Shown here piece after piece: positions 5,538 to 29,415 of a DNA stretch of 44,948 nt. The notes below the pieces were generated by a model that saw only the letters and a program-made list of their open reading frames with translations, searched no databases and was not told the origin of the DNA. Each line of letters opens with the position of its first letter. The stretch's first letter is position 1. The translations under genes were made by a program, and so were the position numbers. The stretch is from a virus, in the IMG/VR virus record IMGVR_UViG_3300037261_000140, positions 1 through 44,948 of that record; one strand, 5' to 3'.

Positions 5538-5548
5538 CTAAAGATTAC
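5538..5548 (-). promoter_or_regulatory. AATCTT box before tail tube gene
   Basis: Minus strand reads GTAATCTTTAG, overlapping the sheath stop codon and ending 18 bases before the tube ATG at 5520; AAAGGAG follows as ribosome site. Same motif as before the fibre, DUF3494, portal-side and endolysin units. Confidence 0.5.
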
Positions 5549-8304
5549 GCGGCTGACTGAACCTGGGATACGTTAATACTGATCGGGATGAAATAGATGG
5601 CAGTAGCCAGCTTGATTTCAACCGCAACAGCCATTTCAGGCCCATTGATGGTGACCTTTTGGTTTTTATAACCAAGAGGAGCATCGGAACTGCCGGCGAT
5701 TAACTTCAACCGTTTGTAGCCGTCCATTTTTTGAGCCAAGAAGCTCAAAGCGGTAGCTGCATCGACATCGGCCAAACTCTTACCAACGAACGTGCTTTGG
5801 AAGCTCGCGGCCAGGTCGAGGGCCAAGATATCGGAACAGTAAACTGCTTGGATGCTGTTATAAACGAAGTTGGTATCAACTCCGTAGGTTGTTTGGTCAC
5901 TGACCCAACGATTGCCGGCTGTATCCTGTGTTAGGAACAGAAGACCTGCGCTGAGTGCATCTTCAACATCGCCGGGGCTGCCGGAATCAAATCCAGTAGG
6001 ATCGGTGAAGCTGATGACGTTTGCATATTTGTTGACGATGGCTTTATAGAATCCACCGGCTTGCATTCCAGCGGCCACACAAGCGGCGTACCAAGGCATG
6101 AAACTGGTAATAACCCCTTTGGAGTTAACCTGAGTCGGCCTTTGCATGGTAAGCGAGCAACGGTAGTTCGCGAGACTTTGAGCCTGCGCTTTAGCATTCG
6201 CATAACTTCCCCAGAAGGAAAGAATACAAATGCGATTCTTTTTGAGTTTTGGTGTGCTAAACTCGATACAATGCGATTTCGTCGCAGCATTGATCGCGGC
6301 GATTGTATAGGTCGAACTTGCATCGGTAAGCCCGGCGATGATATCAGCCGAAGCATCTTCTGAGAAAAGAGGAACGATGATGTTGACATCAATCGTAGCC
6401 AATAACTCGATAGCTTGGATGATTGTCGCAGCAGTAGTTCCACCTCTGGCGCCGCCAGCAAGAAACGCTGGGTTTACCATAGGATTGGGCAATCCGGCTG
6501 TAGCTATCATATTGAATTGCACTTTAGTCGCAACAGCAACATCTTGAGCGAATTCATAAGCTGCATCTTTGATTCTTCCAGGTTGACCAGCGGCCACAGT
6601 AGAAGCGATACCAACGGCGGCAACAGCGTCCAAAGCAGAAGGAGGTAACTGACTAGCTGAAGAATCAGCTGAAGCAGAATATCCCGTTTGAGAATTTAAG
6701 AATGCGGCTAAATCTCCGATTGTGGAATACTGAGCGAGATTAACGCTTAAGTTAGCGCCTGATCCGCCAGTAACGGCTGTGGTCAACAAGTTAGTTGTTT
6801 TGTTGATGGTAACCGTTCCAGAAGTACCTTGATAACCAAGATAAAGGGCAAAGGTTGTTGGAACGTCGATTGTTTGGCTGTAGCCAATATCGGTTCTGTT
6901 GATTTGAACTTCAACTTCGGCTTCTTGAGAAGCGACGTTGATACCGGGAGCTAAACCTAAAGCGGCCAGATCTCCGGGGGTAGAATCGATCAATTCAAAA
7001 CTTCTTCCCCAGCCACTTCTATAAGGAGCAGGGTTAGCGGCCATGGTCAATTGTACAGAGTTCGGAGCGGCACCGGCTGAAGCCACAAGGCCAGCAGGAA
7101 GTACGGCGTTAAGCTCGACAATTAATTCGGCGATATTCCCGTGGGCTGGCGTATTGATTATGCCAGGAGGGAAACCTGTGATAGTATTTGTCGGAGAAGA
7201 ACCTACGTCTCCGCTGATAACAGAGAAACCAGTGTTGGTTACAGCTGAAGCGCCCAAGAGAGCGAAATTTCCGGCTGATGCCAATAATGGAGCTTGTTGA
7301 GCATTCACGATAGTCGCAGCACTTAAGGAGATAGCTCCAGATAGAGCGATTAAGCTACCGTTGACAGTTCCACCAGAAGTATCCGTGATCGAGGTTTGAG
7401 CGATGACGTTACCATTGAAGGTACCGATAAATGCAGAGTTGAGGGTAGCAGAGCTACCAACGATGAAGTACACGTTTTTAGCAAGTGCTCCACCAGTTAA
7501 ATTGATGACTGGAATTCCAGTTGAACCAGTAACGAGGGTACTTGCAGTTTTGATAACGAATACATCGGTAGCCGTACCGTTAAAGGTAAGTGCTCCGCCG
7601 GCATCTAAAGTAGCCGCGCCAGTATTGTAATAACCGGCAGATAATGTTTGTCCATCGAGAACAGCAGGGATCGCGACATAACCGCCGTGACCAGCCAAAG
7701 ATGTATAGGCCGCCAAAGCATCAGCTTGAGCCGTTGCAGCAGAAAGACCGCCGCTGGATGAACTAAGGGTGACCACAGTAGCAGGTCCGCCATTCAATCG
7801 AACAGAAAAAGTATCTCCGTTTAAGGCAGCGCCGAAAGCGGTGATAGTATTACCAGCAAAAGAAGGAGGAGTTTCAGTTTCTAAAGAGGTGACTTGATAA
7901 CGGTAGAGATTTCCGTTTGTTCCGAAGTTGTTATCAAGAATTGTTGCATAGTCGGTGTCAACAAGGGCCGAAGCTTGAGAACTGGAGTTTGTTTTTACGA
8001 TGTAAATTTTGTTGGCCGAGCCGACGATATCTGCATCGCCTGACGGAGCAGAGAAAGCCGCGAAGGCATCAACAATGGGTCCTGAAACATATTGTTGCAT
8101 GACCTTATCGAGTTGATCGGGCGTAAAGGAGTTATTTTTCAACTGAAACGAGGGATCAGTGAAAACATCTCCGCCATCGGCTTCACCAAAGATAACTACG
8201 TTACCAGACGAACCAAGTCCAACTGGCTGGCTTTGAACCGTAATTTCCGGGTATGCGCCGGGAATATTAGTATTTAAAAAACTTGTTACTTCTCTTTGAG
8301 ACAT
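5545..8304 (-). CDS. tail sheath protein with inserted, permuted DUF3494-like domain
   Basis: 919 aa. The N terminus (NIPGAYPEITVQSQPVG, then GNVVIFGEADGGDVF) and the long C-terminal part (ATIIQAIELLATIDVNIIVPLF, ANYRCSLTMQRPT, VYCSDILALDLAASFQSTFVGK, KLATAIYFIPISINVS) match the contractile-tail sheath plan: an N-terminal exchange arm, variable domains and a conserved C-terminal core. Residues about 181-386 (7764-7147) are not sheath-like. They contain the DUF3494 ice-binding-protein signature in swapped order: DALAAYTSLA, LDGQTLSAGYY, INLTGGALAKNVYFIVG, FNGNVIAQTSI and SLIALSGAISL come first, followed by NFALLGASAV, VISGDVGSSP and NTITGF. The insertion splits another sheath domain (RLNGGPATVVTL before, NIAELIVELNAVLPAG after). 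At 919 aa it is larger than many sheaths. The domain should be displayed on the outer tail surface. The tube gene follows, and a 107-aa gene precedes it. Confidence 0.9.
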   Translation of the reverse strand: MSQREVTSFLNTNIPGAYPEITVQSQPVGLGSSGNVVIFGEADGGDVFTDPSFQLKNNSFTPDQLDKVMQQYVSGPIVDAFAAFSAPSGDADIVGSANKIYIVKTNSSSQASALVDTDYATILDNNFGTNGNLYRYQVTSLETETPPSFAGNTITAFGAALNGDTFSVRLNGGPATVVTLSSSSGGLSAATAQADALAAYTSLAGHGGYVAIPAVLDGQTLSAGYYNTGAATLDAGGALTFNGTATDVFVIKTASTLVTGSTGIPVINLTGGALAKNVYFIVGSSATLNSAFIGTFNGNVIAQTSITDTSGGTVNGSLIALSGAISLSAATIVNAQQAPLLASAGNFALLGASAVTNTGFSVISGDVGSSPTNTITGFPPGIINTPAHGNIAELIVELNAVLPAGLVASAGAAPNSVQLTMAANPAPYRSGWGRSFELIDSTPGDLAALGLAPGINVASQEAEVEVQINRTDIGYSQTIDVPTTFALYLGYQGTSGTVTINKTTNLLTTAVTGGSGANLSVNLAQYSTIGDLAAFLNSQTGYSASADSSASQLPPSALDAVAAVGIASTVAAGQPGRIKDAAYEFAQDVAVATKVQFNMIATAGLPNPMVNPAFLAGGARGGTTAATIIQAIELLATIDVNIIVPLFSEDASADIIAGLTDASSTYTIAAINAATKSHCIEFSTPKLKKNRICILSFWGSYANAKAQAQSLANYRCSLTMQRPTQVNSKGVITSFMPWYAACVAAGMQAGGFYKAIVNKYANVISFTDPTGFDSGSPGDVEDALSAGLLFLTQDTAGNRWVSDQTTYGVDTNFVYNSIQAVYCSDILALDLAASFQSTFVGKSLADVDAATALSFLAQKMDGYKRLKLIAGSSDAPLGYKNQKVTINGPEMAVAVEIKLATAIYFIPISINVSQVQSAA

Positions 8305-8644: not shown

Positions 8645-10150
8645 TTAACTCTTTTTCAATCGTTTATTGGCTTTGTCTTCCATAAACTTAGCAAGTTTGG
8701 CCGATCCAATACTTTTCCCAGCCGGCATTTCTGACTTGGTTACTGCCGAACTTGTTTTTGGCGCCTGAGCGTCCTTACCAGTATCAAGAGCTTTCTTTAA
8801 ATTAGCCGAATGATACTCAACTTTCCACATTCCAGATTCAGATTTTATTACCTGACCTTCCTCTGATTTTGCGGCAGGAGCAGGTGAGGGAGAAGGAGCA
8901 GGTGAGCTAACGCTTCTTGCACCTTGTTGTATTTTAGCGGGAGTGATCGAACCACTGGCCGCAGCATTCGCAAAATTTTGTCCAAAATCTTTCTTCAGCG
9001 ATTCAGACTTACCAAAAGCACCGCTAATCCCAGCTTGAACCCCTTGAGGAGTTGCTGTTTGGGTATGGGGTACTCCGCCTGCGGCACCTGCCGCTGCGAT
9101 CCCGGCTTGTATTCCGCCGTCTTTTTTAAGTTCTTCGCCTTCATGTTGATATGTGTCAGAACCATGAACGATTTCGTGACCGTTCAAATTCTTGATTCCG
9201 ATATTATGGGCATGTTCCTTAAATTGATTAGGAGATGCCTCATGTGTTTTGTATCCATGTTGTTTCATACTATGATGAACTTTGTCGATTAAATGTTGTC
9301 TAACCGACATTCCAAATTTATCGTTGCTGCTTTTTTTCTCTTCTGCTTTATCTACACCATCTTCACTTTTCGGAAGATTGGGTTTAGGCATATCTTTGAG
9401 TTCTGATAATTTATCGCTATGTAAAGACTTAGCATCTGACATCACAGAATCTTTACTTGATTTCATATCCGAGCCATATTTATTGGCATTTCTAACTCGA
9501 TTGCCCGCGCTAGATCCTTCTGTAGTTTCCATTCCGCTATGTTTGAATGGGCTTTTCTCATGGACACCCTTTTCATCTTTTTCTAAATTGGCTGAATGAT
9601 ACTCAACTTTGTGCATTCCAGCTTCAGTTTTTCTGACTTGGCCTTCCATACCGTATTTCTTGACGTTATAGGGCTGAGCGCCGGGAGCCGCATTGTTACC
9701 TTCAGCGTTCTCTTTCGGGTTCTTGTCGGGATCTTCTTGATGTCTAACTCGCCTTTTTCCCACGATGTCTTCTTTATCGACTTCTTCTTGGTGTCTGTGG
9801 GGAGCTTGCGTACCTAACTTCTTAGAGTTCTCAGATTCGTATTTATCCATGCCTTCTTCCGATTTGGGAAGGTTGGGCTTGGGCATTTCTCTTGAAGATG
9901 CCAACACGTCTCGGTGAAGATCTCTTGCTTTCGATTCATATGTTTCTTTTGCCTGGGGATGTTCACTAGGAGCATGATGAGCTTCTCGTGCCATTATTCC
10001 GGCACGCGACATACCTGGATGCCTATTAATTTCTTTATGAACGCCCTTTTCAGCCTTTTCTAAAACTTCAGACTTCCCAATCAATTCCTGTACTTTAGCA
10101 AGAATTGCTTCGGCTACCTGTCTTGGAGTTACTTGTTCATCGCGTGCCAT
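8645..10150 (-). CDS. repeat-rich hydrophilic late protein with KSE motifs
   Basis: 501 aa, very rich in Lys, Glu, Ser, His and Gly; most of it is probably disordered. It contains repeated modules: MPKPNLPKSE twice (coding positions 9857-9886 and 9362-9391), VEYHSANL twice, and several copies of a (K/E)GVH or SGM(H/W)K phrase. KSE occurs seven times. A central piece (residues about 285-345, HLIDKVHHSMKQHGYKTHEASPNQFKEHAHNIGIKN) may be a small folded domain. The same MPKPNLPKSE peptide occurs near the C terminus of the prohead protease at 28561-28590. No enzyme motif is seen. Its place among neck and tail genes suggests a virion or assembly protein, possibly processed by the phage protease (inference). 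The gene has an AATCTT-like box upstream. Confidence 0.6.
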   Translation of the reverse strand: MARDEQVTPRQVAEAILAKVQELIGKSEVLEKAEKGVHKEINRHPGMSRAGIMAREAHHAPSEHPQAKETYESKARDLHRDVLASSREMPKPNLPKSEEGMDKYESENSKKLGTQAPHRHQEEVDKEDIVGKRRVRHQEDPDKNPKENAEGNNAAPGAQPYNVKKYGMEGQVRKTEAGMHKVEYHSANLEKDEKGVHEKSPFKHSGMETTEGSSAGNRVRNANKYGSDMKSSKDSVMSDAKSLHSDKLSELKDMPKPNLPKSEDGVDKAEEKKSSNDKFGMSVRQHLIDKVHHSMKQHGYKTHEASPNQFKEHAHNIGIKNLNGHEIVHGSDTYQHEGEELKKDGGIQAGIAAAGAAGGVPHTQTATPQGVQAGISGAFGKSESLKKDFGQNFANAAASGSITPAKIQQGARSVSSPAPSPSPAPAAKSEEGQVIKSESGMWKVEYHSANLKKALDTGKDAQAPKTSSAVTKSEMPAGKSIGSAKLAKFMEDKANKRLKKS

Positions 10151-11563: not shown

Positions 11564-12355
11564 TTAGCCGCCGTACTTTGCTAAGATTTGTGGAAGGACA
11601 TTTGTTTCCCATTCATTCAAGGCCCATTGATATGCTGCTTCAAAGAAATTCTGAGCTTTATAGCCTGGATGAATAAATTTTCCTTCACTGGCACCGCTGT
11701 CGGTCACAGTGCGGAATGTCATAATTTCTCTTTTTACTGATGTTTTTCCAGTCGCCTTATCTTGTACTTCTCTTTGATAGACGCTGACTCGGGCTAATGC
11801 AGGAGTGTTGGCTTTTGATTTTAAAGAACGGCCAACAAAGCTACTTTTATCTGGAATGCTGAATTCATGAAGTTTTCCAAGCCGAGGATTGCCGCCCTTT
11901 TTCTGAATTGTACTCCAAGGAATTTTTCTTGCGGCCATCTCTGATCTAATTTGGCTGACCAAACTTTGAGCATAGGCATTATTTTTGCTAGGAGATTTTT
12001 CATGATGGAAAGGAACAGCAAGACTTTTATGGCCAGTACGAGGATTTACTGTGGCCTTACTACTTTTTAAAATATCATCTTTCATGTCTCTGGGGCCGGC
12101 GCCGTCTTCAATCCAAAGAGCACTTTCGTCAATTGTGAATAGGTGAACGTGTGGGGCAATTTCTGCAACGTGAAAAGCTTTTTCAAATATTTCTCGGCTA
12201 TGATCTAGTTTTTCTTCTGCCATTTCTGTGATTCGGGCATGGGTCATCGTAGCAAGAGCATCTACTCCATTTAGAATGTCTTGAGTGATCTCTTCTTTGG
12301 CTTCTCGAAAAGCATCGGCAATAGAATTTACGTCAATCTCTAGCTTAATACCCAT
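11564..12355 (-). CDS. HK97 gp10-like neck/tail-completion protein
   Basis: 263 aa. The N-terminal half is helical (NSIADAFREAKEEITQDILNGVDALATMTHARITEMAEEKLDHSREIF). The C terminus carries the characteristic phrase of HK97-gp10-like proteins: a serine/glycine strand (MTFRTVTDSGASEGKFIHPGYKAQNFFEAAYQWA) in which IHPG-x-K-A-x-x-FF precedes the last helix. Such proteins sit at the head-tail joint and help terminate or stopper the tail. The start ATG at 12355 overlaps the last base of the upstream mCpol-like gene, suggesting coupled translation, and the next structural gene begins one base after its stop codon. Confidence 0.7.
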   Translation of the reverse strand: MGIKLEIDVNSIADAFREAKEEITQDILNGVDALATMTHARITEMAEEKLDHSREIFEKAFHVAEIAPHVHLFTIDESALWIEDGAGPRDMKDDILKSSKATVNPRTGHKSLAVPFHHEKSPSKNNAYAQSLVSQIRSEMAARKIPWSTIQKKGGNPRLGKLHEFSIPDKSSFVGRSLKSKANTPALARVSVYQREVQDKATGKTSVKREIMTFRTVTDSGASEGKFIHPGYKAQNFFEAAYQWALNEWETNVLPQILAKYGG

Positions 12356-14532
12356 TATTTTTTATTCTCTTTAGAACCCTCTTTTACTGGAACTCCAGAT
12401 GGACCCATGACGACGCCTTTTTTGCGGTCGATCCAACGAGTCTTGCCGGTAACTTTGTCTGTAGTTTTTTGTTGACCTTTAAGGTTGATAGAACCTTCTT
12501 GCAAAGGAGTACGGGCCACATGTTTAGTGGTCGCACTGGTAGGCAATTTACCCGCGCCGCTACCGGCACCGGGTTTACTTCCTTTTGGGGGCTCGTTAGC
12601 TGCACCCTCCTTGGGGGCAGCCGATTTGTCGTCTTTTTTAGGGGGGAATCCACCTTTACCTTCGGTCTTCTCTTTACCTTCAGGTTTTTCCTTTTCGCCC
12701 GGTTTGGCGTCTTTCCCATCCTTTTTTGGCGGAAAGCCACCTTCTTTCCCATCCTTTTCTGGCGGGAAACCACCTTCACCAGCTTGTTGTTCTTGTCCAG
12801 GCTGTTCCTGACCGCCCTTACCACAAGTAGGACACGGTTGTTCTTGGCCTTGTTCTTGACCAGGAATTTCTTCAGAACCATCGCTGAGACCTAACATTTT
12901 AGCCATTTCAATCATGGCCAAAAGCATTGACACGCAGGAGGTGTAAAGTTCTGGAGCTTGAGCAGAAGCTTGTTCCAGAGCTTGTTTGTTATTTTTAAAA
13001 CCTTCAAGAGCTTGGCCAATCATTTGTTTGACCTTTTCTTCTTGCTCTTGATCTTGGCCGGCATCGAGGCCATCTTGCATGACGCCTTCAATTTCTTCTG
13101 CGCCTGGCTCACCAGCTTGCTGTTCTTGAGCTTGCTGTTGTTGCATGGCAGCGTCATTTTCTTGGTCGGCAGGGGATTGTCCGCCTAAACCATTATCCTG
13201 AGTGTCTTCGGGATTGCCATTTTCAACAGTAACTCCGCCTTCAGGTCCGCCATCCATTCCAACATCGCCTGGAACATTTTGTTCTTTGAAACCATCAGGA
13301 CGACTGACGTTTCCTTCCATCTCGGTACTTACAGGCATTTGAGTGTTGTCAACGGCATTCAACTGTTGTTGTTGAGTTGCCGCATCAGCAGGAGGATTAT
13401 CTACTGCCTCTTGAACGACTTCACTAGCCTGCGCTTTTGCTTGGCCGCATGACGGGCACACTTCGCTATGCTCTTCTTGGCCTTGCGGTGCAGCCTCTTT
13501 ACCTTGCGGTGGAGCTTCTTTAGGAGCTTCTTTACCTTTTTCATTTTTCACATCCTTTTCAGGTTTCTTTTCAGTTGCCATATCCACACTTTCTTGAGGC
13601 TCACCTTTTTTAACAGGAGCCTTAAATTCATCTTTCGAGGGATCATTACCAGTAGCTTCAGCCTTCTCCCGAGGAGTAGACATTTCTTTACCAATCACAT
13701 GTTTATTGGCTTGACCAATTTCTTCTTCTTGCTGTTTACTGACCGTTTTATCGGGCAGTTGTCTTTCTTCAGCCTTTGCATCTCCGGGCCGGGCATCAAC
13801 TTTACCTTCTACCGCTTTGCTGGCGGCTTCTTGGGTTGTTTTTGCCGATGCTTCTTGAGGAGATTCTGTAGTAACTGCGCCAGCTTGCGCATTTTCATCG
13901 GGGTTTTCTGCCGATGTTTTGGCCGATGTTGTGGCGGATTGTTCACTGGCTTCCCGTTCCTGTTTTTGTTCAGGGGACTCAGTAGCTAACTGAGCAGGAG
14001 GCTGGCCAGTTTTTTCCTTCTTAATTTGATCTGTCTGCCAAGAGTCTTGTTGAAACTGTTGGTCTTCTTTTCCTGGGCTTAAATATGCTTCTCCAAGCTT
14101 TTGTTCTTCTTCAGAACCCTGACCTTGTGCTACCCTATCTTGAGTGGCTTGGATATCGGATTCAACTGTTTGGTCATACATGACCACTTGATTTTTACCG
14201 CGAAACTTCGCGACCATGAGAGACTTGCCGGCCTGTGAAAGATTTTGGCCTACTCCAACCGACATTGTAAGGTTGGTAGAAAATTCATAGTCTCTGCGCA
14301 GTTCTTCAATATTTTCAACTGCTTCAGCGGGAAGAGAGAAACAGCCTTCGTCTCCGCCGCCACTTATAACTTGTCCATTATGTTCTTGGACCCATTTTTT
14401 AACAACTTCGTGTCCAAGATTTATTCTGGCAGATATTTCACTGAGCGCACCTGCGTCATCCGCAAGTATCGCACGGCCAACAAGCCGTCCGGCGTTGTCG
14501 CCGTCATATGCCAGAAAGATTTGGTTATTCAC
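12355..14532 (-). CDS. Cas10/mCpol-GGDEF-like nucleotidyl cyclase domain with long disordered tail
   Basis: 725 aa from a GTG start (14532), with AAGGA six bases upstream. Residues about 1-122 form a palm-type polymerase/cyclase domain: FLAYDGDNAG (D10, D12) resembles the first metal site of Cas10 and mCpol proteins; GGGDEG at 58-63 matches the GGD(D/E) turn; TMSVGVG and KFRGKNQVVMYD match the end of GGDEF-type folds. The expected reaction is NTP to a cyclic (oligo)nucleotide, not proven. Residues about 123-650 are low complexity (Gln, Glu, Pro, Lys, Gly), with two CPxCG knuckles (CPSCGQ near 365, CPTCGK near 590) and GGFPPKKDGK repeats. The basic C terminus (GKTRWIDRKKGVVMGPSGVPVK) may be a separate small module. 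It sits in the late operon between a zinc-ribbon gene (8-base overlap) and the gp10-like gene, so the enzyme may be virion-associated. A degenerate, non-catalytic palm is the alternative. Confidence 0.7.
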   Translation of the reverse strand: MNNQIFLAYDGDNAGRLVGRAILADDAGALSEISARINLGHEVVKKWVQEHNGQVISGGGDEGCFSLPAEAVENIEELRRDYEFSTNLTMSVGVGQNLSQAGKSLMVAKFRGKNQVVMYDQTVESDIQATQDRVAQGQGSEEEQKLGEAYLSPGKEDQQFQQDSWQTDQIKKEKTGQPPAQLATESPEQKQEREASEQSATTSAKTSAENPDENAQAGAVTTESPQEASAKTTQEAASKAVEGKVDARPGDAKAEERQLPDKTVSKQQEEEIGQANKHVIGKEMSTPREKAEATGNDPSKDEFKAPVKKGEPQESVDMATEKKPEKDVKNEKGKEAPKEAPPQGKEAAPQGQEEHSEVCPSCGQAKAQASEVVQEAVDNPPADAATQQQQLNAVDNTQMPVSTEMEGNVSRPDGFKEQNVPGDVGMDGGPEGGVTVENGNPEDTQDNGLGGQSPADQENDAAMQQQQAQEQQAGEPGAEEIEGVMQDGLDAGQDQEQEEKVKQMIGQALEGFKNNKQALEQASAQAPELYTSCVSMLLAMIEMAKMLGLSDGSEEIPGQEQGQEQPCPTCGKGGQEQPGQEQQAGEGGFPPEKDGKEGGFPPKKDGKDAKPGEKEKPEGKEKTEGKGGFPPKKDDKSAAPKEGAANEPPKGSKPGAGSGAGKLPTSATTKHVARTPLQEGSINLKGQQKTTDKVTGKTRWIDRKKGVVMGPSGVPVKEGSKENKK

Positions 14533-14818
14533 GTTTTTTCCTTAAAGTTTCCAGGAGCATTTCAATGTTTTCTGCATCCCAGCCTTTACCGAATCGAACC
14601 TTTATTCCCTGTTCGGTCTTTTTAATGAAGACTTTTCTTTCTCGATCCTCACCAAGACAAACGCAGCCGGAAAAAACAGATCCATCAAAAATGTGTTTAC
14701 CACAATCTGGGCATTCAACAGTTTCGCCTTTAGCCATTTCAATTGAAAATTCATTTTTCTTTCCTTTATTCTTTCTGGATTCAATAAACTCTTTTAATTT
14801 TGATGCACCGGAGGCCAT
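14525..14818 (-). CDS. small zinc-ribbon protein upstream of the cyclase-like gene
   Basis: 97 aa. A CPDC knuckle at residues about 36-39 and CVC about 13 residues later (HIFDGSVFSGCVCLG) could bind one zinc. The N terminus is basic and helical (SKLKEFIESRKNKGKKNEF), and the C terminus has helix ENIEMLLETLRKKRE. The gene overlaps the GTG start of the mCpol-like gene by eight bases, so the two are probably translated together and may act together. No named family recognised. Confidence 0.6.
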   Translation of the reverse strand: MASGASKLKEFIESRKNKGKKNEFSIEMAKGETVECPDCGKHIFDGSVFSGCVCLGEDRERKVFIKKTEQGIKVRFGKGWDAENIEMLLETLRKKRE

Positions 14819-14827
14819 GTTATTGCC

Positions 14828-15289
14828 TTATGTCTGGAAGAAGCCACTAGGAGGCATCGGATTGGCCGCAAAAGCAATATAGGTGTCATCTGCAATCAGA
14901 AATACGAGCATTGTAGCGGCGCTCGAAATCATGAAATTTGACTCTCCTGATGCAAAATATGACCATGAGTTTGGAGGACATGGAAGGCCTACGTTTCCAT
15001 TAGCATCGACGGCACCAGCAGCCAAAGAGGCAACTGTTCCCGCACTTCCAAATGTAATGGAGCCCATAGCATTTGCGTTATTGTAAACCGCAATGTTTTT
15101 ACCTGGCTGAATAGCTACAGCAGTAGCAATATTCGTGGTCCACGCGGGACTAGCAGCAGGTGTCGGAATTGGAATGAGTTTTCTCCCCACTTCCGTACTT
15201 TTTCTAGCGCCAGCCGGGCCGCTGTATGTAAAAACATCAGCATCTCCTGGACTAACTACTCGTGTTCCATCTATTTTTCTATTGTTCAT
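14828..15289 (-). CDS. small beta-rich virion protein
   Basis: 153 aa, rich in Ala, Gly, Ser and Asn, with alternating strands (NIAVYNNANAMGSITFGSAGTVASLAAGAV, GLPCPPNSWSYFASGESNFMISSAATMLVFLIADDTYI). This looks like a jelly-roll or decoration-type virion protein, not an enzyme. It begins a new unit: an AATCTT box and an AAAGGAA ribosome site lie upstream. A capsid or neck decoration role is possible but only inferred from composition and neighbours. Confidence 0.5.
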   Translation of the reverse strand: MNNRKIDGTRVVSPGDADVFTYSGPAGARKSTEVGRKLIPIPTPAASPAWTTNIATAVAIQPGKNIAVYNNANAMGSITFGSAGTVASLAAGAVDANGNVGLPCPPNSWSYFASGESNFMISSAATMLVFLIADDTYIAFAANPMPPSGFFQT

Positions 15290-15311
15290 ATGGTTTCCTT
15301 TACTTTCATGG

Positions 15312-15323
15312 ATTAAAGATTAC
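15312..15323 (-). promoter_or_regulatory. AATCTT box before the 153-aa virion gene
   Basis: Minus strand reads GTAATCTTTAAT, ending 22 bases before the ATG at 15289, with AAAGGAA as ribosome site. One of the best matches to the shared motif. Confidence 0.5.
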
Positions 15324-15358
15324 CTGTGGAAGGCCAAATACTGGATTTTACTACCCAT

Positions 15359-16318
15359 TTATTGGTCCTCGTCTCCCTTTATATTCTTCATATCGACCAC
15401 AATGATCGGGTTAACATTGTCCGTAGGAATCAAGGGTTTAGCCGGGTTGATAGAATCAACTGGCGCCTCCTGGACCCTTCCGGGGGTTTTTGATTTGAGT
15501 TGATTTGTTTGGCCGCCCTTATTTTGATTATGGTAGATGTATTCCCTAACAATCATGGCGTAGTAGGGCATTCTTTCAGGGCTTCTGACGCCTCCGGTCG
15601 TGACATTGGTCACGCGGATTTCTTTAGGTAATGACACGACGTACCAATAAGCTTTGTAGAGGTATCTTACTGAATATACGCGGCCTTTTCCCGTTACCGG
15701 GTCAATTCCTGGATTTTTTCCGCCGGCTGTCCAACTGATGTTTCCATCTTTTGTGATGCAAAAATCTGGGCCGACCTTATACTCTATATTTTGACTATCA
15801 ATCAAAATCTCAAGAGTTACGATAGGATACATTGGGATATTAGGTACGCCCTGTTCATAATCCATTTTTTGATATGTTGAAACGAACACATCTGCGTCCG
15901 GATCAGTGACATATAAACGGTCTCCAGGGGCCAGATAAATTCTTGTCCCATCAGATTGGCCGCCCGTGGTCGGGTCATTGTAAAATCTGGGGAGAACAAG
16001 CCGGCCTTCGGCAGTATCTACGAATCCGCCATCGCTTTTGCCTTTAGATCTTTTATCGTCGGTCATAGCACCGCTAAAAATGCCGCTGCATTTGTAAATC
16101 ATGCCATTTGAAGTGATTGTGTCTACGCCATCATTTCGGCGGTAATCGCCCTTGTCCTTTTGGCCAAGAGGACTCGGGATGGCCTTATAATGCGTGAAGT
16201 CAACCGCAAGGCTGGTCACGAAGGCATCTTGTTTTGCGAGATCTAGGGAATGCTGGACGAATGGCGTTTGACGCGATATATCATCGACCTGAATTCCGAA
16301 GGGATTACGTTTACTCAT
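15359..16318 (-). CDS. virion structural protein (319 aa), neck region
   Basis: Begins at ATG 16318 (MSKRNPFG). A TTG twelve bases upstream could add four residues but has no ribosome site. The protein is rich in beta strands and aromatic residues, with segments such as RIYLAPGDRLYVTDPDADVFVSTYQKMDYE, YPIVTLEILIDSQNIEYKVG and GRVYSVRYLYKAYWYVVSLPKEIRV, ending in a Pro/Asn-rich tail. It fits a phage head-tail joining or baseplate-type structural protein; no catalytic motif was found. It overlaps the upstream 120-aa gene by eight bases. I do not recognise the family. Confidence 0.55.
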   Translation of the reverse strand: MSKRNPFGIQVDDISRQTPFVQHSLDLAKQDAFVTSLAVDFTHYKAIPSPLGQKDKGDYRRNDGVDTITSNGMIYKCSGIFSGAMTDDKRSKGKSDGGFVDTAEGRLVLPRFYNDPTTGGQSDGTRIYLAPGDRLYVTDPDADVFVSTYQKMDYEQGVPNIPMYPIVTLEILIDSQNIEYKVGPDFCITKDGNISWTAGGKNPGIDPVTGKGRVYSVRYLYKAYWYVVSLPKEIRVTNVTTGGVRSPERMPYYAMIVREYIYHNQNKGGQTNQLKSKTPGRVQEAPVDSINPAKPLIPTDNVNPIIVVDMKNIKGDEDQ

Positions 16319-16673
16319 TTTTATTACCAATCAAACAAATAGTTGAAAGCTCTTCCAACTTCTTGTCGGTTTGAGCATAAGATAAAGTCAAAGATTTTAT
16401 CACTTCGTTAACACTCATTTTTTTCGCATATGAGGCGATCCTGCTTTTCACTTTGGCGCCGCCTACATTATTGTTATGCTTAACTTTTATGTTAAATGTC
16501 CGGCTTACCCCGGTCTGGCAAAATCGTTCAATTTCGCACAAAAAATTCACCAAGGAGGAATCATTGGGTTCGTAGTCCACTACGATCTGTTTGGCCCCTA
16601 CGATTTGTTCCTCTAGTGGCTTACTTATATCGTATTTGATTTCATCTTCTGCGCGTATAATCTTGATGCACAT
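16311..16673 (-). CDS. unrecognised small protein (120 aa)
   Basis: Mixed alpha/beta: strand CIKIIRAED, strand AKQIVVDYEPND, a helix (SLVNFLCEIERFC), then strand TFNIKVKHNNN, a basic stretch and helix VNEVIKSLTLSYAQTDKKLEEL. There is no membrane segment or recognisable catalytic site. It lies one base after the 173-aa gene and overlaps the 319-aa virion gene, so it is part of the same late operon. Possibly a chaperone or connector accessory; this is a guess from position only. Confidence 0.45.
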   Translation of the reverse strand: MCIKIIRAEDEIKYDISKPLEEQIVGAKQIVVDYEPNDSSLVNFLCEIERFCQTGVSRTFNIKVKHNNNVGGAKVKSRIASYAKKMSVNEVIKSLTLSYAQTDKKLEELSTICLIGNKNE

Positions 16674-16674
16674 T

Positions 16675-17196
16675 TTATTTCCCTTGAATCCGGATCTTCA
16701 CCGCACTGCAAGAAACGGCCTTTTCGGCAGTAGCACCGGCAAGTGCTCGGCTAAATTGGGACGGTGCGGCAAGAGTGTCAATTACAATGGAGTCCCTTTC
16801 TAAATGTCCAGTGACCGAGGCCACTTTACTGTCATTTTGCGTGATGTGGAATTCAATACGACTTCCATCCTGAATAGAATAGATGTCATGGCCTGATTTT
16901 CTAAGATCTTCGCTAAGCCAATGAGAATGTTGATCGACAACAGCAGTATCGGACATTCCTTCGCTTTTCATCAAAGCGGGTTGAAACTCAGGATACTGTT
17001 TCGCAAGGTTAAACTTGACGACAGCAGGATGACTCCCAGCGGCAAGAGCTTCTTCACGATATTTGCCCTTGGGTTTACCAATTGCGATCCAAAAGCCGCC
17101 ACGAGTGCGAATCATCTTAACAGGATGTTTGTCAAGCATACCCGCGTCTTCGATGTGTTCAATTTCTTTATCTGTCAAAATAGGCTTGTCGCTCAT
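16675..17196 (-). CDS. unrecognised late protein with KSE motif (173 aa)
   Basis: The N-terminal part has a compact motif (KMIRTRGGFWIAIGKPKGK followed by EEALAAGSHPAVVKFNLAKQYPEFQPALMKSEG) ending in MKSE. A second domain (RIEFHITQNDSKVASVTGHLERDSIVID) is beta-rich. The stop of the upstream 489-aa gene overlaps its ATG by one base, so the two are coupled. The KSE tripeptide between the two halves is placed as an inter-domain linker would be, and may be a cleavage site. Function unknown; no enzyme signature. Confidence 0.5.
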   Translation of the reverse strand: MSDKPILTDKEIEHIEDAGMLDKHPVKMIRTRGGFWIAIGKPKGKYREEALAAGSHPAVVKFNLAKQYPEFQPALMKSEGMSDTAVVDQHSHWLSEDLRKSGHDIYSIQDGSRIEFHITQNDSKVASVTGHLERDSIVIDTLAAPSQFSRALAGATAEKAVSCSAVKIRIQGK

Positions 17197-18665
17197 TAGT
17201 GGGCTCCTTGATAATTGGTAGTAATTTTCTGTACATATGGGTGTATTTTAATATCTTGTTTATTTTTCATGGCCTTATAGGTTCCACGGATTCCCTGATT
17301 CCAGGAGAAACCGATTTTCTGGGGATCTTGGCCAAAATGTTTTTCAAGTCTTTTTAAATGCGATTGTGCAATGGAATCTTCCAGGCCAGGATTGTCATTC
17401 ATATATTTATGAAGTTCGGGACCATGCAGCATTGTTGCTTTTTCGTATTTTGCTTTTAATTTGGGCTGAAGATGAATGGTCTCTCTAATGACATCGGGAG
17501 TCAAGCCATATTTACCATAAGCCGATTCGCCAGAAGCTAAAGGTGCATGGTTAGTATTTTTTCCACTGCTGCTTTCGACAGATGCAATGCTTCTAAGCAT
17601 GCGACCAGAGTCATAAGCAGAAGCCGCTACCGGGGCCTTCATTTCCATAGCTTTTGGAGCAGTAGGCTGACTAATCATAGAAGAGGCCGCAATCATAGCG
17701 CCGGCAGCTTTTGTCTTGAAGCTCTTGGCTAAATCAAGATCTTCAAATTCATAAATCGTATTTCCGGCGCCCTTTTCGACACTAAGGTTTTCAAAGTACA
17801 CATCTTCGGGAGCCAAACCTTCTTTATTGATTTGGTCATATAGGGGCTTATCGATGGTCACATGCATGAAATAAGTATCGTATTGAACACCATCCATTTC
17901 ATCATAGAATTTTTTGTAAGAAGGAGGACAACCATCAACCATGAGCATGAAGTATTCAGTATCGCTGGCCTTAGAATAGTGAATTTTTGTGTGAAATTTT
18001 AATTTCTTAGGATCGGGCCGACAAATTTCGAGTTCATGAACTTTCTTTTTGATTTCATCAAGATCCATCTTCTGCTTTGCGTCAAAAACCTTCAAGGACA
18101 TATGAAGTGGAATATCGGGCGTAAGCATGGCGCGTCCTTTAATGTTCACTTTAAAAAGAACATCTCCTCCTATCATCGCTTTTTTGCGATAATCATTGGC
18201 GACACCAGTGCCGATCTTTTCTTTCTTATCAAGCATGGAATTATTTATAGTCTCTTGAGGAGGAATCTGAACGCCAGTCTGTCCATAACCTTCAGCGCCA
18301 TAATTGGCACGAATATCATGATCGCCGATTTCAATAGCCAAAGCCTTGATGCCGTATCTGGACATTTCCATAGTCCATTTCTCGACTTCTTCTTTGGGGC
18401 ATGTAATATAAGCCGCATCGGTCGCACTGCGATTTTCTTCGAGTACAACGTGATCTGGATACTTCATGAACATAAGTTCAATGGCACCAGGAGGACTGGA
18501 AGCTTGATCGAAAATGATTTTTGAATCTGATGGAATGGCCAACATAGGCGAGTGAATGCCCTGTTCCGATTTACCAATAGGACGGTCCAGATCATTGACT
18601 TTTATAAGTGAGCCAAGTTCTTGGATAACATCTTCTAATGTTCGTCTCATGTGTTTATGCCGCAT
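17196..18665 (-). CDS. 2H phosphoesterase-like domain fused to lytic transglycosylase domain
   Basis: 489 aa. The middle region has two H-x-(S/T) motifs 80 residues apart, LHMSLKVF (H188, S190) and FMHVTID (H268, T270), each at a strand end, the hallmark of 2H phosphoesterases such as LigT and the anti-CBASS protein Acb1, which hydrolyse 2',5'- or cyclic phosphodiester bonds. The C-terminal region (about 350-475) looks like a soluble lytic transglycosylase: IASVESSSG (catalytic Glu about 364), SAYGKYGLTPDVI, and a late FSWNQGIRGTYKAM helix. This domain would cut peptidoglycan during entry or lysis. The N terminus (1-160) is less clear but has GKSEQG near residue 31. ATG 18665 was chosen because a weak GGAAGTGG site precedes it; an internal ATG at 18650 is possible. 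It overlaps the upstream gene by 11 bases. The fusion is unusual. Confidence 0.65.
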   Translation of the reverse strand: MRHKHMRRTLEDVIQELGSLIKVNDLDRPIGKSEQGIHSPMLAIPSDSKIIFDQASSPPGAIELMFMKYPDHVVLEENRSATDAAYITCPKEEVEKWTMEMSRYGIKALAIEIGDHDIRANYGAEGYGQTGVQIPPQETINNSMLDKKEKIGTGVANDYRKKAMIGGDVLFKVNIKGRAMLTPDIPLHMSLKVFDAKQKMDLDEIKKKVHELEICRPDPKKLKFHTKIHYSKASDTEYFMLMVDGCPPSYKKFYDEMDGVQYDTYFMHVTIDKPLYDQINKEGLAPEDVYFENLSVEKGAGNTIYEFEDLDLAKSFKTKAAGAMIAASSMISQPTAPKAMEMKAPVAASAYDSGRMLRSIASVESSSGKNTNHAPLASGESAYGKYGLTPDVIRETIHLQPKLKAKYEKATMLHGPELHKYMNDNPGLEDSIAQSHLKRLEKHFGQDPQKIGFSWNQGIRGTYKAMKNKQDIKIHPYVQKITTNYQGAH

Positions 18666-19836
18666 GGTGCCACTTCCCGTTGATTATTTCGTCGGGCAAT
18701 AACCCAGCTTTTTGTTCAGCGTAGACAGTCTTATGGGGATTTTTTCGATTACTCTCGCCATGTTTTCCAAAATTGACTGTATTATTTTGGCCCATGGTTT
18801 CACTGGCCAAAGCTTTTTGAGCTTCGGGAGAGTACATCGGTTTATGAGTTAAAAACGCAGAATGCTCACCTTTTGGTCCAAAGGAATGTCCTTCTTTTGC
18901 GTGACCAAAATAGTCATGGACGACTCGGAATACGTCATTTGCGAGCATAGGTTTACCATCATGGCTTTCGCCAGTAGTAACCAATAAAGGATGGTCTGTA
19001 GGAGCACTTCCTTCGGAGCCGTACCCTTCTTCTGTTGGGTAATACCATAAATGGTTATTTTTATGGATATCATTAATAACGTCTTTTGAATTTTTGTATG
19101 GATTTTCCTGGCCCGGTTTCATCTTGGAAATTTTAAGGCCGCTTTTTTTGATATGTTGAAATTGCTCAAGAGTTTCTTTGATTAAAGCACCGTAGGCAGC
19201 TTTAACTTTGGGATCATTTGGTTTGTGTTCCATTTGTTCATAGGCCGATGCAATCTGGGCTCCGTGGGCTGGATTAACAGTCACGGGATTTGAAGGAGCT
19301 AATTTTAAACCCTTGGATTGAGCATATCCCTCGGCGACCTGTTTCACCTTGTTATTTTCTGGAATTCCGCCTCCGGCGCTACCGGCTTGATTGAAATTGT
19401 GTGTAAAGTGATGAGATCCACCGGGCAACGTGGTAAAATTGTCTTTTGGGGCTTGATTGTGCCAAGTCGTGCCTTCTCCAAGAATTTTCTTGCCAGCTTC
19501 GGGTCCATGATGAATACGCATTTCATGTTTTTTCCCAGTAGAAAATATGGAGCTATCCTGGCCAAGTCTAGCGGCCAATCCATGAAGGTGTTCAGCGTGT
19601 TCTGGTTTTACTCCATAGACAGCAATGCTTTTTTCTTTTTTACCATCATAGCTACCTTGGGTTTCATGAGCATCGTATCCGGCGCCCTTAAGGTGAGCAA
19701 GAACCGTAGGATGATCCATTTTCAGTTCATTCTTCTCGGGATGTTTTGGATTTTCAGCGGACATAAGGAAATGCGGCTCAGAAATTTTCTGCTTATGATC
19801 TTTTAGCGCATTTGAGATGCCGGTTTGGATACCCAT
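18655..19836 (-). CDS. polyvalent-type protein: DUF3293-like plus metal-binding-looking domain
   Basis: 393 aa. Residues about 18-115 (HFLMSAENPKHPEKNE, HLKGAGYDAHETQGSYDGKKEKSIAVYG, LAARLGQDSSIF) resemble DUF3293, which has a NP...N...L...G pattern ending in FGQ-(A/S)-(V/I). Residues about 180-380 carry a second conserved-looking block: FRVVHDYFGHAKEG (H307, H312), GFGPKGEHSAF-like text, and ALASETMGQNNTVNFG (E346, Q350, N351). The clustered His and Glu suggest a metal site, but the reaction is unknown. Proteins of this build occur among polyvalent proteins of phages and plasmids, thought to be delivered into the host with DNA. The gene lies in the late operon, 9 bases after the neck gene. 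Function inferred only. Confidence 0.5.
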   Translation of the reverse strand: MGIQTGISNALKDHKQKISEPHFLMSAENPKHPEKNELKMDHPTVLAHLKGAGYDAHETQGSYDGKKEKSIAVYGVKPEHAEHLHGLAARLGQDSSIFSTGKKHEMRIHHGPEAGKKILGEGTTWHNQAPKDNFTTLPGGSHHFTHNFNQAGSAGGGIPENNKVKQVAEGYAQSKGLKLAPSNPVTVNPAHGAQIASAYEQMEHKPNDPKVKAAYGALIKETLEQFQHIKKSGLKISKMKPGQENPYKNSKDVINDIHKNNHLWYYPTEEGYGSEGSAPTDHPLLVTTGESHDGKPMLANDVFRVVHDYFGHAKEGHSFGPKGEHSAFLTHKPMYSPEAQKALASETMGQNNTVNFGKHGESNRKNPHKTVYAEQKAGLLPDEIINGKWHHAA

Positions 19837-21387: not shown

Positions 21388-22005
21388 ATGAAGGTATTAG
21401 CGATTTCTGGTTGGAAGGGCTCCGGGAAAGACACAATTGCGGCGTATTTGATCGAAAAATACGGCTTTGTTAGGACAGCTTTTGCTGATCCGCTCAAAGA
21501 CATGACCGCTGCTGAATACGGCGTCGAACGCTCCTGGATGGATGATCCAAAATACAAAGAAGCTCCTCTTTTACATCTCCCGGTTAATCCCCAAGATGGA
21601 TTTAGCCGAATGCTCACCGATTTCATGGTCAAAGAATTCAAAAGTCCTTCACTTGAAGAAAAACAAGTTTACTGGACTCCTCGTGCTCTTTGCATTTTGA
21701 AGGGTTCGACCAATCGCTCAGTTGATTCAAGTTTTTGGGTTAAACGAGCTATTTCTGTGATTAAATCGGGAGAGAAATCCTTAAATGTAATCACCGATCT
21801 TCGCTACAACTCCGAAGCCAAACAATTGAAGGAAGCTTTTGGTAGTGATGTTGTTTTCTTGAGAATAAAACGATTTGACAAATCTCCAAGCAGCGATCCT
21901 TCCGAGAGAGATTTGGATAATTTTGAATTTGATCTCTACGTCGATAACACTGGTTCCTTAGATAAAGCCTATGGGCAGGTCGATGGAATAGTCAGTGGTC
22001 TTTAA
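21388..22005 (+). CDS. deoxynucleoside monophosphate kinase (T4 gp1-like)
   Basis: 205 aa with a P-loop at residues 8-16 (GWKGSGKDT) after strand VLAIS, and FADPLKDM soon after, the usual start of phage dNMP kinases that phosphorylate dNMPs to dNDPs for phage DNA synthesis. RALCILKGSTNR, FWVKRAISVI, VITDLRYNSEAKQLKEA and VVFLRIKR fit the family's core. ATG 21388 has a strong TAGGAGAG site. It is a single plus-strand gene between two leftward late units, so it probably has its own expression timing. No clear sigma70 promoter was found in front of it. The dUMP/dTMP/dGMP substrate range is known for T4 gp1 only; here it is inferred. Confidence 0.8.
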   Translation: MKVLAISGWKGSGKDTIAAYLIEKYGFVRTAFADPLKDMTAAEYGVERSWMDDPKYKEAPLLHLPVNPQDGFSRMLTDFMVKEFKSPSLEEKQVYWTPRALCILKGSTNRSVDSSFWVKRAISVIKSGEKSLNVITDLRYNSEAKQLKEAFGSDVVFLRIKRFDKSPSSDPSERDLDNFEFDLYVDNTGSLDKAYGQVDGIVSGL

Positions 22006-22544: not shown

Positions 22545-23513
22545 TTATGCTTCGGTGATACCACTGATTAATGTAATTGCGGTCTGAGCATATAGAGCAC
22601 CATGAACCGTAGTAGTAGCTTGAGTTGCAATTGAAGTTGCAGCCAAGATAACGCCTCTAAATGTTGAAGCTGTTTTCAAAGTTACTGCGCCGGTAATGGC
22701 CCAGAAAACATTTTGCGGCAAAATTCCACCAGTTAAATTTACTGCGATTCCAGCTTCTAAATTAAGAGTTCCAGAAATCTGCATAACGATTGAATCTAAT
22801 GGTCCGCCATGAATTGTGATGGGGCCAGTGATATCAACAGGGGTAGACCATTTGTAAATTCCAGGAACAAGCGTTTGGCCGTTAAGAGTTCCGCCGCCTA
22901 ATCCAACGACTGGGGCCGGGACAACTAACCCTTGAGCAAAAGTGTATGCCGCTTGCATGTCAGTGATTGCCTGGGTCAAATTAGCGGGAGTCGGGGCTGC
23001 GTTGTCAGGAGAATCTACGTTTCCAGAAACTTCAGCAGCACTACCATGGGCTCCACCGAGGTTCGGAGTATAAGTAAATCCAGTGATTGCGGTATGTGAA
23101 ATTGGACTTACTGCGATATTTCCCGTAACTGTGGCACCAGAGGCATTACTGATTCCTGCTTCTGATAAAATTCGATAGTTTCCAGCAGTGAGTAAAGGAA
23201 CAATGCCAGGGCCGTGAGCAGAATTGATTGCGCAATAGGCTCCAATGTTGTTCACGATATCCATTGCATATGGTTTGCTTGCAAACCCATCGACCATTAC
23301 GGCGATGTCATGCGGAGTAAGAAGTTTTTGACAAAGGATAGCTGCCTGAATGTTTAAGGCAACTTGTTTATCGCCCATTGCATCGATCAGTCTCGCCATG
23401 GTATTTTTGGAAAGAACAGATCCGTTTTGAACTGCAAGTGCGAATTCTTTACCGGCAGGTTTGCTTGCCAGGGCGTCTATAATATCCAAAACTGTGTCAT
23501 TCATTAGGGTCAT
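22545..23513 (-). CDS. virion-type protein with C-terminal DUF3494 ice-binding-like domain
   Basis: 322 aa. Residues about 1-100 form a helical phage-specific N-terminal domain (DIIDALASKPAGKEFALAVQNG; note the repeated phrase ASKP at 16 and 78). Residues about 103-322 match DUF3494, the bacterial and fungal ice-binding beta-solenoid: LLTAGNYRILSEAGISN, VTGNIAVSP, AITGF, an alpha-helix phrase (LTQAITDMQAAYTFA), LGGGTLNGQTLVPGIYKWST, VNLTGGILPQNVFWAITGAVTL, ASTFRGVILAATSIA and ALYAQTAITLISG. The order is canonical and near full length. No signal peptide is present. It follows the capsid and zinc-ribbon genes and has its own AATCTT box, so it is probably a late virion protein, for example a head fibre. 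Ice binding is only one possible role; DUF3494 proteins also act as adhesins. Confidence 0.85.
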   Translation of the reverse strand: MTLMNDTVLDIIDALASKPAGKEFALAVQNGSVLSKNTMARLIDAMGDKQVALNIQAAILCQKLLTPHDIAVMVDGFASKPYAMDIVNNIGAYCAINSAHGPGIVPLLTAGNYRILSEAGISNASGATVTGNIAVSPISHTAITGFTYTPNLGGAHGSAAEVSGNVDSPDNAAPTPANLTQAITDMQAAYTFAQGLVVPAPVVGLGGGTLNGQTLVPGIYKWSTPVDITGPITIHGGPLDSIVMQISGTLNLEAGIAVNLTGGILPQNVFWAITGAVTLKTASTFRGVILAATSIATQATTTVHGALYAQTAITLISGITEA

Positions 23514-23994: not shown

Positions 23995-25395
23995 TTATGA
24001 ACCGCCGGGGGTTAATTGACCCGTGATGTTCTCAAGGAGTACGTTCTTACGAGGTTGGAAAACAGCGAGAGACAAGAATCTGAAATGTGCTTCGGGGAGC
24101 GACAAGTCATTGATTGCGAGTTTCAATTTGCTGTAGGGAGCTAATTGAGCGATGCTCATGGTGTTCCCTTGAACCAAGAATCCAGTTACAGATCCACCTT
24201 GACGATTTCCGAGATCGGAGAACACTGGGTTACCGATGCTTTGAGAAATCTTACCGATGAATTTGGCTGAAGCAGCAGACCCGTTGGCATCACTACGATA
24301 CACGTTGTAATACTGGGCACCGGCTACGGCGGTAATGGTTACGGTAACCTTGTCACCGGCAGCAGCGACCACTTGGGAAGCTGAAGCAGAAGGGAGCGAC
24401 TCACCACGCATACTGACGGCAGTAACGTAGTAGAAATATGTCGCAGCCTGGAGCAGCGAACCAGCTGCACCTGCATCGGCAAGAGCGGGAGCAGCGGCTT
24501 GGGCCGGGCTACCTGAACGAGCGCGAGCGGGACGAGTTTTACCAGAGAGGAAACGAGACGCTTCGAGAGAAACGATTGCACTTGAGGTCCATTGGGTTCT
24601 CAAATGAGCGCCAGTGGCTTCTTGAGGAGAGCCGGCGAGCATAATACGTTCTTTCGCATGCGCGATTTTGTTGTATTGAGAGAGGGTGATGGGATCGAGA
24701 ACGAGTCTGTCAGCCGCACCCATGTTCATTGCTGAACGAACCGAACTGTCTTCGATGATGGACTGTGCTAACGCACCGCCAACAGAAAGAATAACAGTTT
24801 GATCTGAGCCGTACTCAGCAAACATCAAATCTTGAGTGTTTGATTGAGCGTCGGATTGACGAACTTGTTGATCGAGGCCGATCATGTTGGGGACTTTGGC
24901 TACCGCGAGAGGGTTACCATCAAATACTCCAGCATTGGAGAAATCGGATTGACCACGGAAAAGGTCAAATTCAATATCCCCCGCGAGTTTCATCGCAGCG
25001 TCAGCAGAGGCTCTGTCTTCGGCTTTAACACCGTCGAAAGCACCAATCATGTTCGCAGCAACAGTGACTCGACGAGTCGTGCTGTAATATGACATCGGGA
25101 CCACGGCACGAACATAGTTCGTTGTGTCTTCTTCACCGATTCCACCTTCAAATTGGGCAGAACCTCCGAAGATACCATAGTCAAGTTGACGGTTGAACTG
25201 ATGGAGTTGAGACTTAACGTCTTTACTCGGCAGCATCTTTTGCAACTTGATATGACTGTCGTCAAATGTAACATTATGCATCACTGGCGATAGATCTTCT
25301 ACCATTAGCGCGGCACCTTGGGCAAGCTGACCAGGAGCGGCATTGTAACTGCCTGCTTCTAGGGCTTTCATGAGAGACTGAAGTTGTTCAATCAT
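23995..25395 (-). CDS. major capsid protein, HK97 fold with Ig-like insertion
   Basis: 466 aa, coded directly after the scaffold-like gene and before a strong terminator. The N-terminal part (DLSPVMHNVTFDDSHIKLQKMLPSKDVKSQLHQFNRQLDYGIFGG) and the part that follows (FEGGIGEEDTTNYVRAVVPMSYYSTTRRVTVAANMIG, then DIEFDLFRGQSDFSN and DPITLSQYNKIAHA) have the order of the N-arm, E-loop and P-domain of large-phage HK97-fold capsid proteins. Residues about 300-405 (TYFYYVTAVSMRGESLPSA, VTVTITAVAGAQYYNVYRSDANG) form an Ig/FN3-like domain inserted before the last A-domain strands, as in SPO1/Twort-type capsids, and would stick out from the capsomer. The C terminus (RFLSLAVFQPRKNVLLENITG) returns to the core. 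It assembles the prohead shell. Confidence 0.9.
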   Translation of the reverse strand: MIEQLQSLMKALEAGSYNAAPGQLAQGAALMVEDLSPVMHNVTFDDSHIKLQKMLPSKDVKSQLHQFNRQLDYGIFGGSAQFEGGIGEEDTTNYVRAVVPMSYYSTTRRVTVAANMIGAFDGVKAEDRASADAAMKLAGDIEFDLFRGQSDFSNAGVFDGNPLAVAKVPNMIGLDQQVRQSDAQSNTQDLMFAEYGSDQTVILSVGGALAQSIIEDSSVRSAMNMGAADRLVLDPITLSQYNKIAHAKERIMLAGSPQEATGAHLRTQWTSSAIVSLEASRFLSGKTRPARARSGSPAQAAAPALADAGAAGSLLQAATYFYYVTAVSMRGESLPSASASQVVAAAGDKVTVTITAVAGAQYYNVYRSDANGSAASAKFIGKISQSIGNPVFSDLGNRQGGSVTGFLVQGNTMSIAQLAPYSKLKLAINDLSLPEAHFRFLSLAVFQPRKNVLLENITGQLTPGGS

Positions 25396-29013: not shown

Positions 29014-29415
29014 ATGAAAACACTTAAAGGAACACTCGAATTCTATTTTGCTACCGGAGAACAGCCCCGGCCACAGTTCGTCGGCAAAAAATCCCTAGAT
29101 AAAAATGGTCATATCCAAAATTATGATGAAGTCTATGACATTGCCGTTGGCGATGAGATACGATTTCTTCATCCGGCGCTGAAACGAGAAAAATTCGCAT
29201 CAGTTGACAACAGATTTCACGCATTTCTTTATTATCTGGCCTTAATGTGGGATCAAAAGGTTAAGAAAATGGAAGTTGAATACAAACCTAGTGTTACAAC
29301 TTTTAGTTGGGGTTATCACTCCACAAAATGTCCCCATTGCGGGGCCTATTCTGGCACTCATAATTTACTGTGTAAAGTTATCGCTAATGAAGGGAATCCA
29401 TATGACCGAAAGTGA
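29014..29415 (+). CDS. unrecognised protein with zinc knuckle (133 aa)
   Basis: Starts at ATG 29014 (MKTLKGTLEFYFATGEQ) after AGGGGA; a TTG at 28999 is less likely. The first two thirds are beta-rich with aromatic residues (LTFYFA, YDEVYDIAVGDEIRFLHPALKREKF). The C-terminal part holds CPHCG and a further Cys-x(n)-Cys (SGTHNLLCKV), perhaps a zinc site. The gene overlaps the RyR-domain gene by 14 bases, so translation is probably coupled. Function unknown. Confidence 0.55.
   Translation: MKTLKGTLEFYFATGEQPRPQFVGKKSLDKNGHIQNYDEVYDIAVGDEIRFLHPALKREKFASVDNRFHAFLYYLALMWDQKVKKMEVEYKPSVTTFSWGYHSTKCPHCGAYSGTHNLLCKVIANEGNPYDRK

Follow-up and report, generated by a model that had tools for sequence, protein, structure and literature searches.

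The 44,948 bases of IMG/VR record IMGVR_UViG_3300037261_000140, which were analysed as a whole and are referred to as the window, have the gene content of a myovirus-like phage. They encode a tail sheath (5545-8304, minus strand), a major head protein (23995-25395), a portal (34965-36839), a terminase (38085-39956) and a GroEL-like chaperonin (40575-42347, minus strand), the last of which is present too in relatives and in Myxococcus phage Mx1, where it is annotated as heat shock protein 60. The nearest relatives of the window are the 171 kb IMG/VR record G001 and, among named phages, Mx1 (170 kb), and the gene order is largely kept between the three. The relatives are mostly metagenomic contigs, and the host is known for Mx1.

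The leftward genes from 20784 to 4523, which include the tail sheath gene, are separated by intergenic gaps of -20 to +69 bases. This tightly packed late unit contains an ORF with a domain of the mCpol type (12355-14532, minus strand) and, with five genes in between, an ORF with a pair of 2H motifs (17196-18665, minus strand). An earlier note on this DNA had placed a cyclase-like gene and a 2H-type gene in one leftward late unit, which is borne out by the match to the mCpol family PF18182, the 2H motifs and the packing of the operon. A dNMP kinase gene (21388-22005, plus strand; PF21448, 1.3e-12) opposes the leftward late genes and interrupts the leftward region at 21.4-22.0 kb, so that the head genes and the neck and tail genes may belong to two transcripts. 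The Mx1 kinase lies at the matching place but is oriented in the late direction. In the window and G001 the tail sheath is long and contains a stretch related to the ORF at 22545-23513 (minus strand) and to two further large G001 proteins; in most other relatives the sheath is about 200 residues shorter.

Phage mCpol proteins

mCpol, the minimal CRISPR polymerase, is an enzyme known from bacterial defence. The window gene encodes 725 amino acids, comprising an N-terminal mCpol domain (residues 6-119; 14176-14517, minus strand) and a tail of about 530 residues. The domain matches PF18182 with an E-value of 1.4e-14 and 54.9 bits (cut-off 26.4), and a seven-sequence profile matches the solved mCpol/OptS structures 9NWN (E 5e-12) and 9MNR (E 8e-12). 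The likeness to these Panoptes enzymes covers the whole length of the domain and includes the same DxD and catalytic aspartates, the ATP-selecting serine and the lysines: D10, D12, G15, S34, G59-G60-D61, K109 and K113 of the window correspond to D6, D8, G11, S30, A55-A56-D57, K105 and K109 of 9NWN. mCpol loses its activity on D57A substitution, and S30 has a part in the selection of ATP (PMC12657230).

We collected 20 distinct phage copies of mCpol. The catalytic and ATP-selecting residues of the solved enzymes are kept in 19 of them, Mx1 being the sole exception, and D10, D12, G15, S34, I37, G59, G60, D61, G93, G95, K109, G112 and K113 are invariant in 19 of the 20. This conservation persists down to 33-39% identity to the window. 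The window carries GGDE (G59-G60-D61-E62) where Panoptes mCpol/OptS has AADG, and E62 varies among the phage copies. Between the two closest genomes, dN is 0.10 in the mCpol domain, less than half of the 0.26 found in its tail, with dS saturated. The earlier note had named an inactive and unpaired cyclase domain as a finding that would contradict it; judged by its residues, the active site in the window is intact and apparently that of a working enzyme.

The low-complexity tail has CxxC pairs, a conserved C-terminal element of 50 residues and a conserved helical segment that is confined to the mCpol proteins of this lineage. From its GTG start the gene shares 8 nt with the upstream gene, and at its end 1 nt with the downstream ATG. 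A programmed frameshift at this end was considered, but gene fusion or fission is likelier, given that several relatives (G002, G012, G015 and L061) encode the C-terminal element as a small ORF of its own. The record G016 (5.8 kb) starts within the tail. Directly upstream of mCpol lies a small Cys-rich gene (14525-14818, minus strand), whose C-terminal module stands beside mCpol across the lineage. Its product has 97 residues in the window versus 300-347 in close relatives, the N-terminal two thirds being absent. The gene coupled downstream through the 1-nt overlap (11564-12355, minus strand) is conserved down to Mx1.

Panoptes mCpol makes 2'3'-c-di-AMP, by which a membrane toxin is held in check, and death follows when phage sponges take the 2'3'-c-di-AMP away (PMC12657230, PMC12657218). 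Unlike the Panoptes gene, the phage copy sits in a structural operon and is fused to a long tail. We rejected the window locus as a Panoptes defence system since it has no effector gene: the neighbours of mCpol give no Pfam match to a two-TM (S-2TM-beta) effector, and none of the genes between 8319 and 19836 contains a 19-residue stretch with a hydropathy above 1.6. A prophage or host copy of the phage mCpol was likewise discarded, as a scan of genome contigs returned no relative. No phage copies of mCpol are described in the open-access papers searched.

The Mx1 protein retains the fold (PF18182, E 4.6e-4) but has lost six of nine key residues (D10, G15, G59, D61, K109 and K113). Mx1, the one phage with an mCpol that is dead by its residues, also lacks the 2H domain, and no 2H was found near its mCpol. 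Among its head genes, near the prohead protease, Mx1 has an apparently intact GGDEF cyclase (OR576727, L015, 17173-17904; NGGDEF; PF00990, 1.3e-9). It is possible that in Mx1 one cyclase (GGDEF) replaced another (mCpol). A wider spread of the GGDEF gene was rejected, since no homologue was found in the phages or viral contigs searched.

The 2H protein and its association with mCpol

The 2H gene (17196-18665, minus strand) encodes 489 amino acids, with an N-terminal region, a 2H phosphoesterase-like domain (residues 151-320; 17706-18215, minus strand) and a C-terminal SLT/lysozyme-like domain (17199-17630, minus strand). The ORF as a whole gives no Pfam match, and its 2H part has none among the Pfam, NCBIfam or PHROG models. 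However, a 170-residue domain common to 12 genomes carries the motifs H-x-[ST]-[LIV]-K and H-x-[ST]-[ILV]-D, represented in the window by H188-M-S and H268-V-T. H188 and H268 are invariant in the H-x-[ST] motifs, at a spacing of 80 (about 70-85 residues are expected in the 2H superfamily), in an 11-sequence alignment (A4), and the motifs are present in all 12 genomes. The top PDB match of the 11-sequence profile is PH0099, a LigT-like 2H protein; the match is weak (E 0.17), with both motifs in register. One orthologue (G003) matches PRK13679, the YjcG 2H family, at 5e-4, and at 0.0023 a PHROG that bears the name RNA ligase. PDB matches of the G003 2H to designed repeat proteins were dismissed as repeat artefacts. 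The similarity to the LigT/PRK13679 type thus consists of both H-x-[ST] motifs in register at a spacing of about 80, with weak E-values; unlike that type, the 2H operon shows no RNA ligase partner. Taken together, the ORF very probably contains a 2H domain.

The C-terminal domain (VES...GKYGLTP) contains an invariant E-S and a G-K-Y-G-like stretch. A search of the PDB gave no match, and two orthologues give a sub-threshold match to Pfam SLT (E 0.008-0.013); the domain looks SLT/lysozyme-like by sequence. It is common to part of a 1479-residue Mx1 protein, where it occurs with ART-PolyVal, NUDIX and GNAT domains. This arrangement resembles the polyvalent phage proteins (PMC5512222), both in the combination of a 2H and a lysozyme-like domain in one late-gene ORF, each assigned here by weak matches, and in the ART-PolyVal, NUDIX and GNAT domains of the Mx1 counterpart. 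Polyvalent proteins with 2H and lysozyme domains have been proposed to be injected, and RNase or nucleotide-degrading roles have been proposed for phage 2H domains (PMC5512222); mCpol is not mentioned in the text of that survey.

The gene beside 2H (18655-19836, minus strand) is one of a family whose members carry a domain resembling S-adenosylmethionine-lyase/DUF3293 (Pfam 3e-6 in L063, 7.6e-5 in Mx1). Other members, at L063:5853-8564 and L066:1513-4899, lie beside 2H or mCpol genes, and in L066 this domain and mCpol are joined in one protein of 1128 residues.

mCpol is present in every relative whose sequence covers the region. Nine portal-bearing fragment records without mCpol contain neither of the two flanking genes and were rejected as counter-examples. 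In the close clade, all 12 genomes that cover the slot have a 2H gene in the same operon position with both H-x-S/T motifs intact, and in these 12 genomes mCpol likewise keeps its slot and its catalytic motifs. The 2H proteins fall into two deep types with about 16-25% identity, whose distribution conflicts with the tree of four neighbouring genes (three changes; AU test p 3e-84 against one clade), which indicates that the slot was exchanged between genomes and was always filled by a 2H. The co-location is more than chance, which is not proof of joint function. The pairing lies within a syntenic operon in which recombination in the flanks always swaps 2H for 2H, so the 12 genomes do not represent independent events. 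Moreover, four more distant phages (L063-L066) have an intact mCpol and no recognisable nearby 2H in the stretch covered, which is short in two of them; the pair is therefore not obligatory.

The RyR gene

A RyR-domain protein of the RyDEP type is encoded at 29387-29770 (plus strand; Pfam RyR PF02026, E 1.3e-11), immediately before an ATP-dependent DNA ligase (29767-30942, plus strand). The TGA of RyR overlaps the ATG of the ligase at 29767 (ATGA), behind a GGAGG, in agreement with the coupling at 29.4 kb described in the earlier note. None of the 17 relatives, of which four span about 170 kb, has RyR, although the ligase is kept in those that cover this stretch. In the isolate-phage collection, 287 records contain RyR, and the only record that matches mCpol is Mx1, which lacks RyR.

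According to a 2026 preprint (PMC13232231), RyR-domain proteins of phages (RyDEP) defeat Thoeris by acting on 2'/3' cADPR as glycosidases or sponges. The window protein shares 34% identity with RyDEP and keeps its catalytic H/D pair (H67/D109, equivalent to H75/D117 of RyDEP); its sequence is nearer to RyDEP homologues, for example the one in Pectobacterium phage Nepra (54%), than to RyDEP itself. On the grounds of distribution and RyDEP likeness we rejected RyR as a sensor of the cyclase product. Judged from its sequence, RyR is a separate anti-Thoeris counter-defence gene, apart from the mCpol/2H pair.

The earlier note had joined the three genes into one signalling or counter-defence system and had called for a search for their co-occurrence in related phages. 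Of this proposal the pairing of cyclase and 2H survives within the clade, where both recur with intact motifs, whereas mCpol occurs without a nearby 2H outside it; RyR varies independently of both and drops out as the third part. That mCpol would make, 2H cut and RyR sense a single signal is now extremely improbable. The window does contain all three genes, and RyR domains bind adenine-containing ligands (PMC13232231), but this arrangement is already contradicted by the absence of RyR from 17 of 17 relatives, by the 287 isolate records with RyR and without mCpol matches, and by the catalytic pair for cADPR retained in the window protein. What looked like a single module falls apart, on comparison with relatives, into counter-defence genes that are independent of one another.

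Possible roles of mCpol and 2H

We tentatively favour, at a probability of roughly 40%, the reading that a late-expressed, active mCpol cyclic-dinucleotide synthase and a 2H phosphodiesterase manipulate host nucleotide immune signals, with particle delivery suggested and RyR acting separately. Catalysis, its product, virion delivery, a functional link between mCpol and 2H and the counter-defence role are what we infer here. mCpol would be made late in infection and convert ATP, most likely to cyclic di-adenylate, and mCpol and 2H would each act within a larger protein whose gene lies among the head, neck and tail genes. The 2H domain may cleave cyclic oligonucleotides of the CBASS type (or else 2'-5'/2',3'-cyclic bonds); the cyclic dinucleotide of mCpol could serve as a decoy or inhibitor, for example by replenishing the 2'3'-c-di-AMP under which the Panoptes effector stays silent. 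Both proteins are possibly carried in the virion and delivered with the particle, as the fusions to the SLT-like domain and to structural-operon tails and the links to polyvalent proteins suggest.

We prefer this reading because the mCpol homology and residues are kept in 19 of 20 copies with low dN, because the 2H motifs are present in 12 of 12 genomes despite exchange, because the dead mCpol of Mx1 coincides with the lack of 2H, and because injection has been proposed for polyvalent proteins. It also draws on T4 Acb1, an unrelated phage 2H enzyme that is reported to degrade 2'3'-c-di-AMP, the product of mCpol (PMC12657230), which together with the shared operon slots strengthens the association of cyclase and 2H posited at the outset. 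Expressed T4 Acb1 also triggers Panoptes death, and deletion of acb1 from T4 left defence unchanged in one study (PMC12657230, PMC12657218). The window 2H resembles Acb1 (T4 gp57B; PMC9117128) as a phage 2H enzyme with an HxT/HxT pair; unlike Acb1, it is fused to an SLT-like domain and lies in a late operon with a cyclase. Hhalign assigns the two a probability of 17%, aligns the second motif only, and they fall in different PHROGs; with no significant sequence match, orthology to the T4 gp57B family is not supported. This weak profile similarity counts against the favoured reading, as does the occurrence of mCpol without 2H in distant phages, and late expression fits poorly with evading an alarm, unless the virion carries the proteins.

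The two enzymes might instead be unrelated and share the operon by descent, with 2H acting as a polyvalent-kind RNase or 2',3'-cyclic phosphate hydrolase unlinked to the mCpol product. The five intervening genes, the mCpol genes of L063-L066 that have no recognisable nearby 2H, the RNA-type proteins (PH0099, PRK13679) to which the 2H similarities, weak as they are, point, and the RNase or nucleotide-degrading roles proposed for phage 2H domains (PMC5512222) all fit this explanation; the intact motifs of both enzymes in 12 of 12 genomes and the refilling of the exchanged slot by another 2H do not, and we consider it somewhat unlikely. Alternatively, a protein of neck or tail assembly may have exapted the mCpol domain for structure or dimerisation, with any nucleotide binding being regulatory. 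Such a role agrees with the place of the gene, which lies between the head and tail genes and overlaps its neighbours at its coding ends, with the conserved helical segment in its long low-complexity tail, and with the Mx1 protein, in which the fold is kept and six of nine key residues are lost so that the gene is retained without catalysis. Yet a purely structural protein would not be expected to keep the catalytic and ATP-selecting residues, as 19 of 20 copies do even where identity falls to 33-39%, which makes this rather unlikely.

Returning to the favoured reading of two enzymes that manipulate host signals, a more specific version, decidedly unlikely as it stands, is that the lineage captured a Panoptes-type cyclase and carries it in its particles. 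Once injected, mCpol would keep the host's cyclic di-adenylate decoy, or another inhibitory signal, at a high level, and the 2H delivered along with it could then destroy CBASS signals without tripping Panoptes. Such a phage would make an immune-relevant cyclic nucleotide, and not only destroy or sponge it.

For the lineage in general, an active site kept over large divergence, beside a 2H of a type able to cut its product, suggests that phages also synthesise cyclic nucleotides that steer host immunity. The predicted anti-Panoptes or signal-decoy strategy is testable, and the proteins described here are candidates for assay.

The tripeptide K[STA]E, perhaps a protease site, is strongly enriched in two other leftward ORFs of the window, at 8645-10150 (minus strand; 10 versus 1.35 expected) and, adjoining the major head protein, at 25422-26294 (minus strand; 9 versus 1.13 expected). 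As proof of packaging such processing sites were rejected, since mCpol and 2H show no enrichment. In G002, G003, G004, L055 and L060, the tripeptide occurs directly after the mCpol domain.
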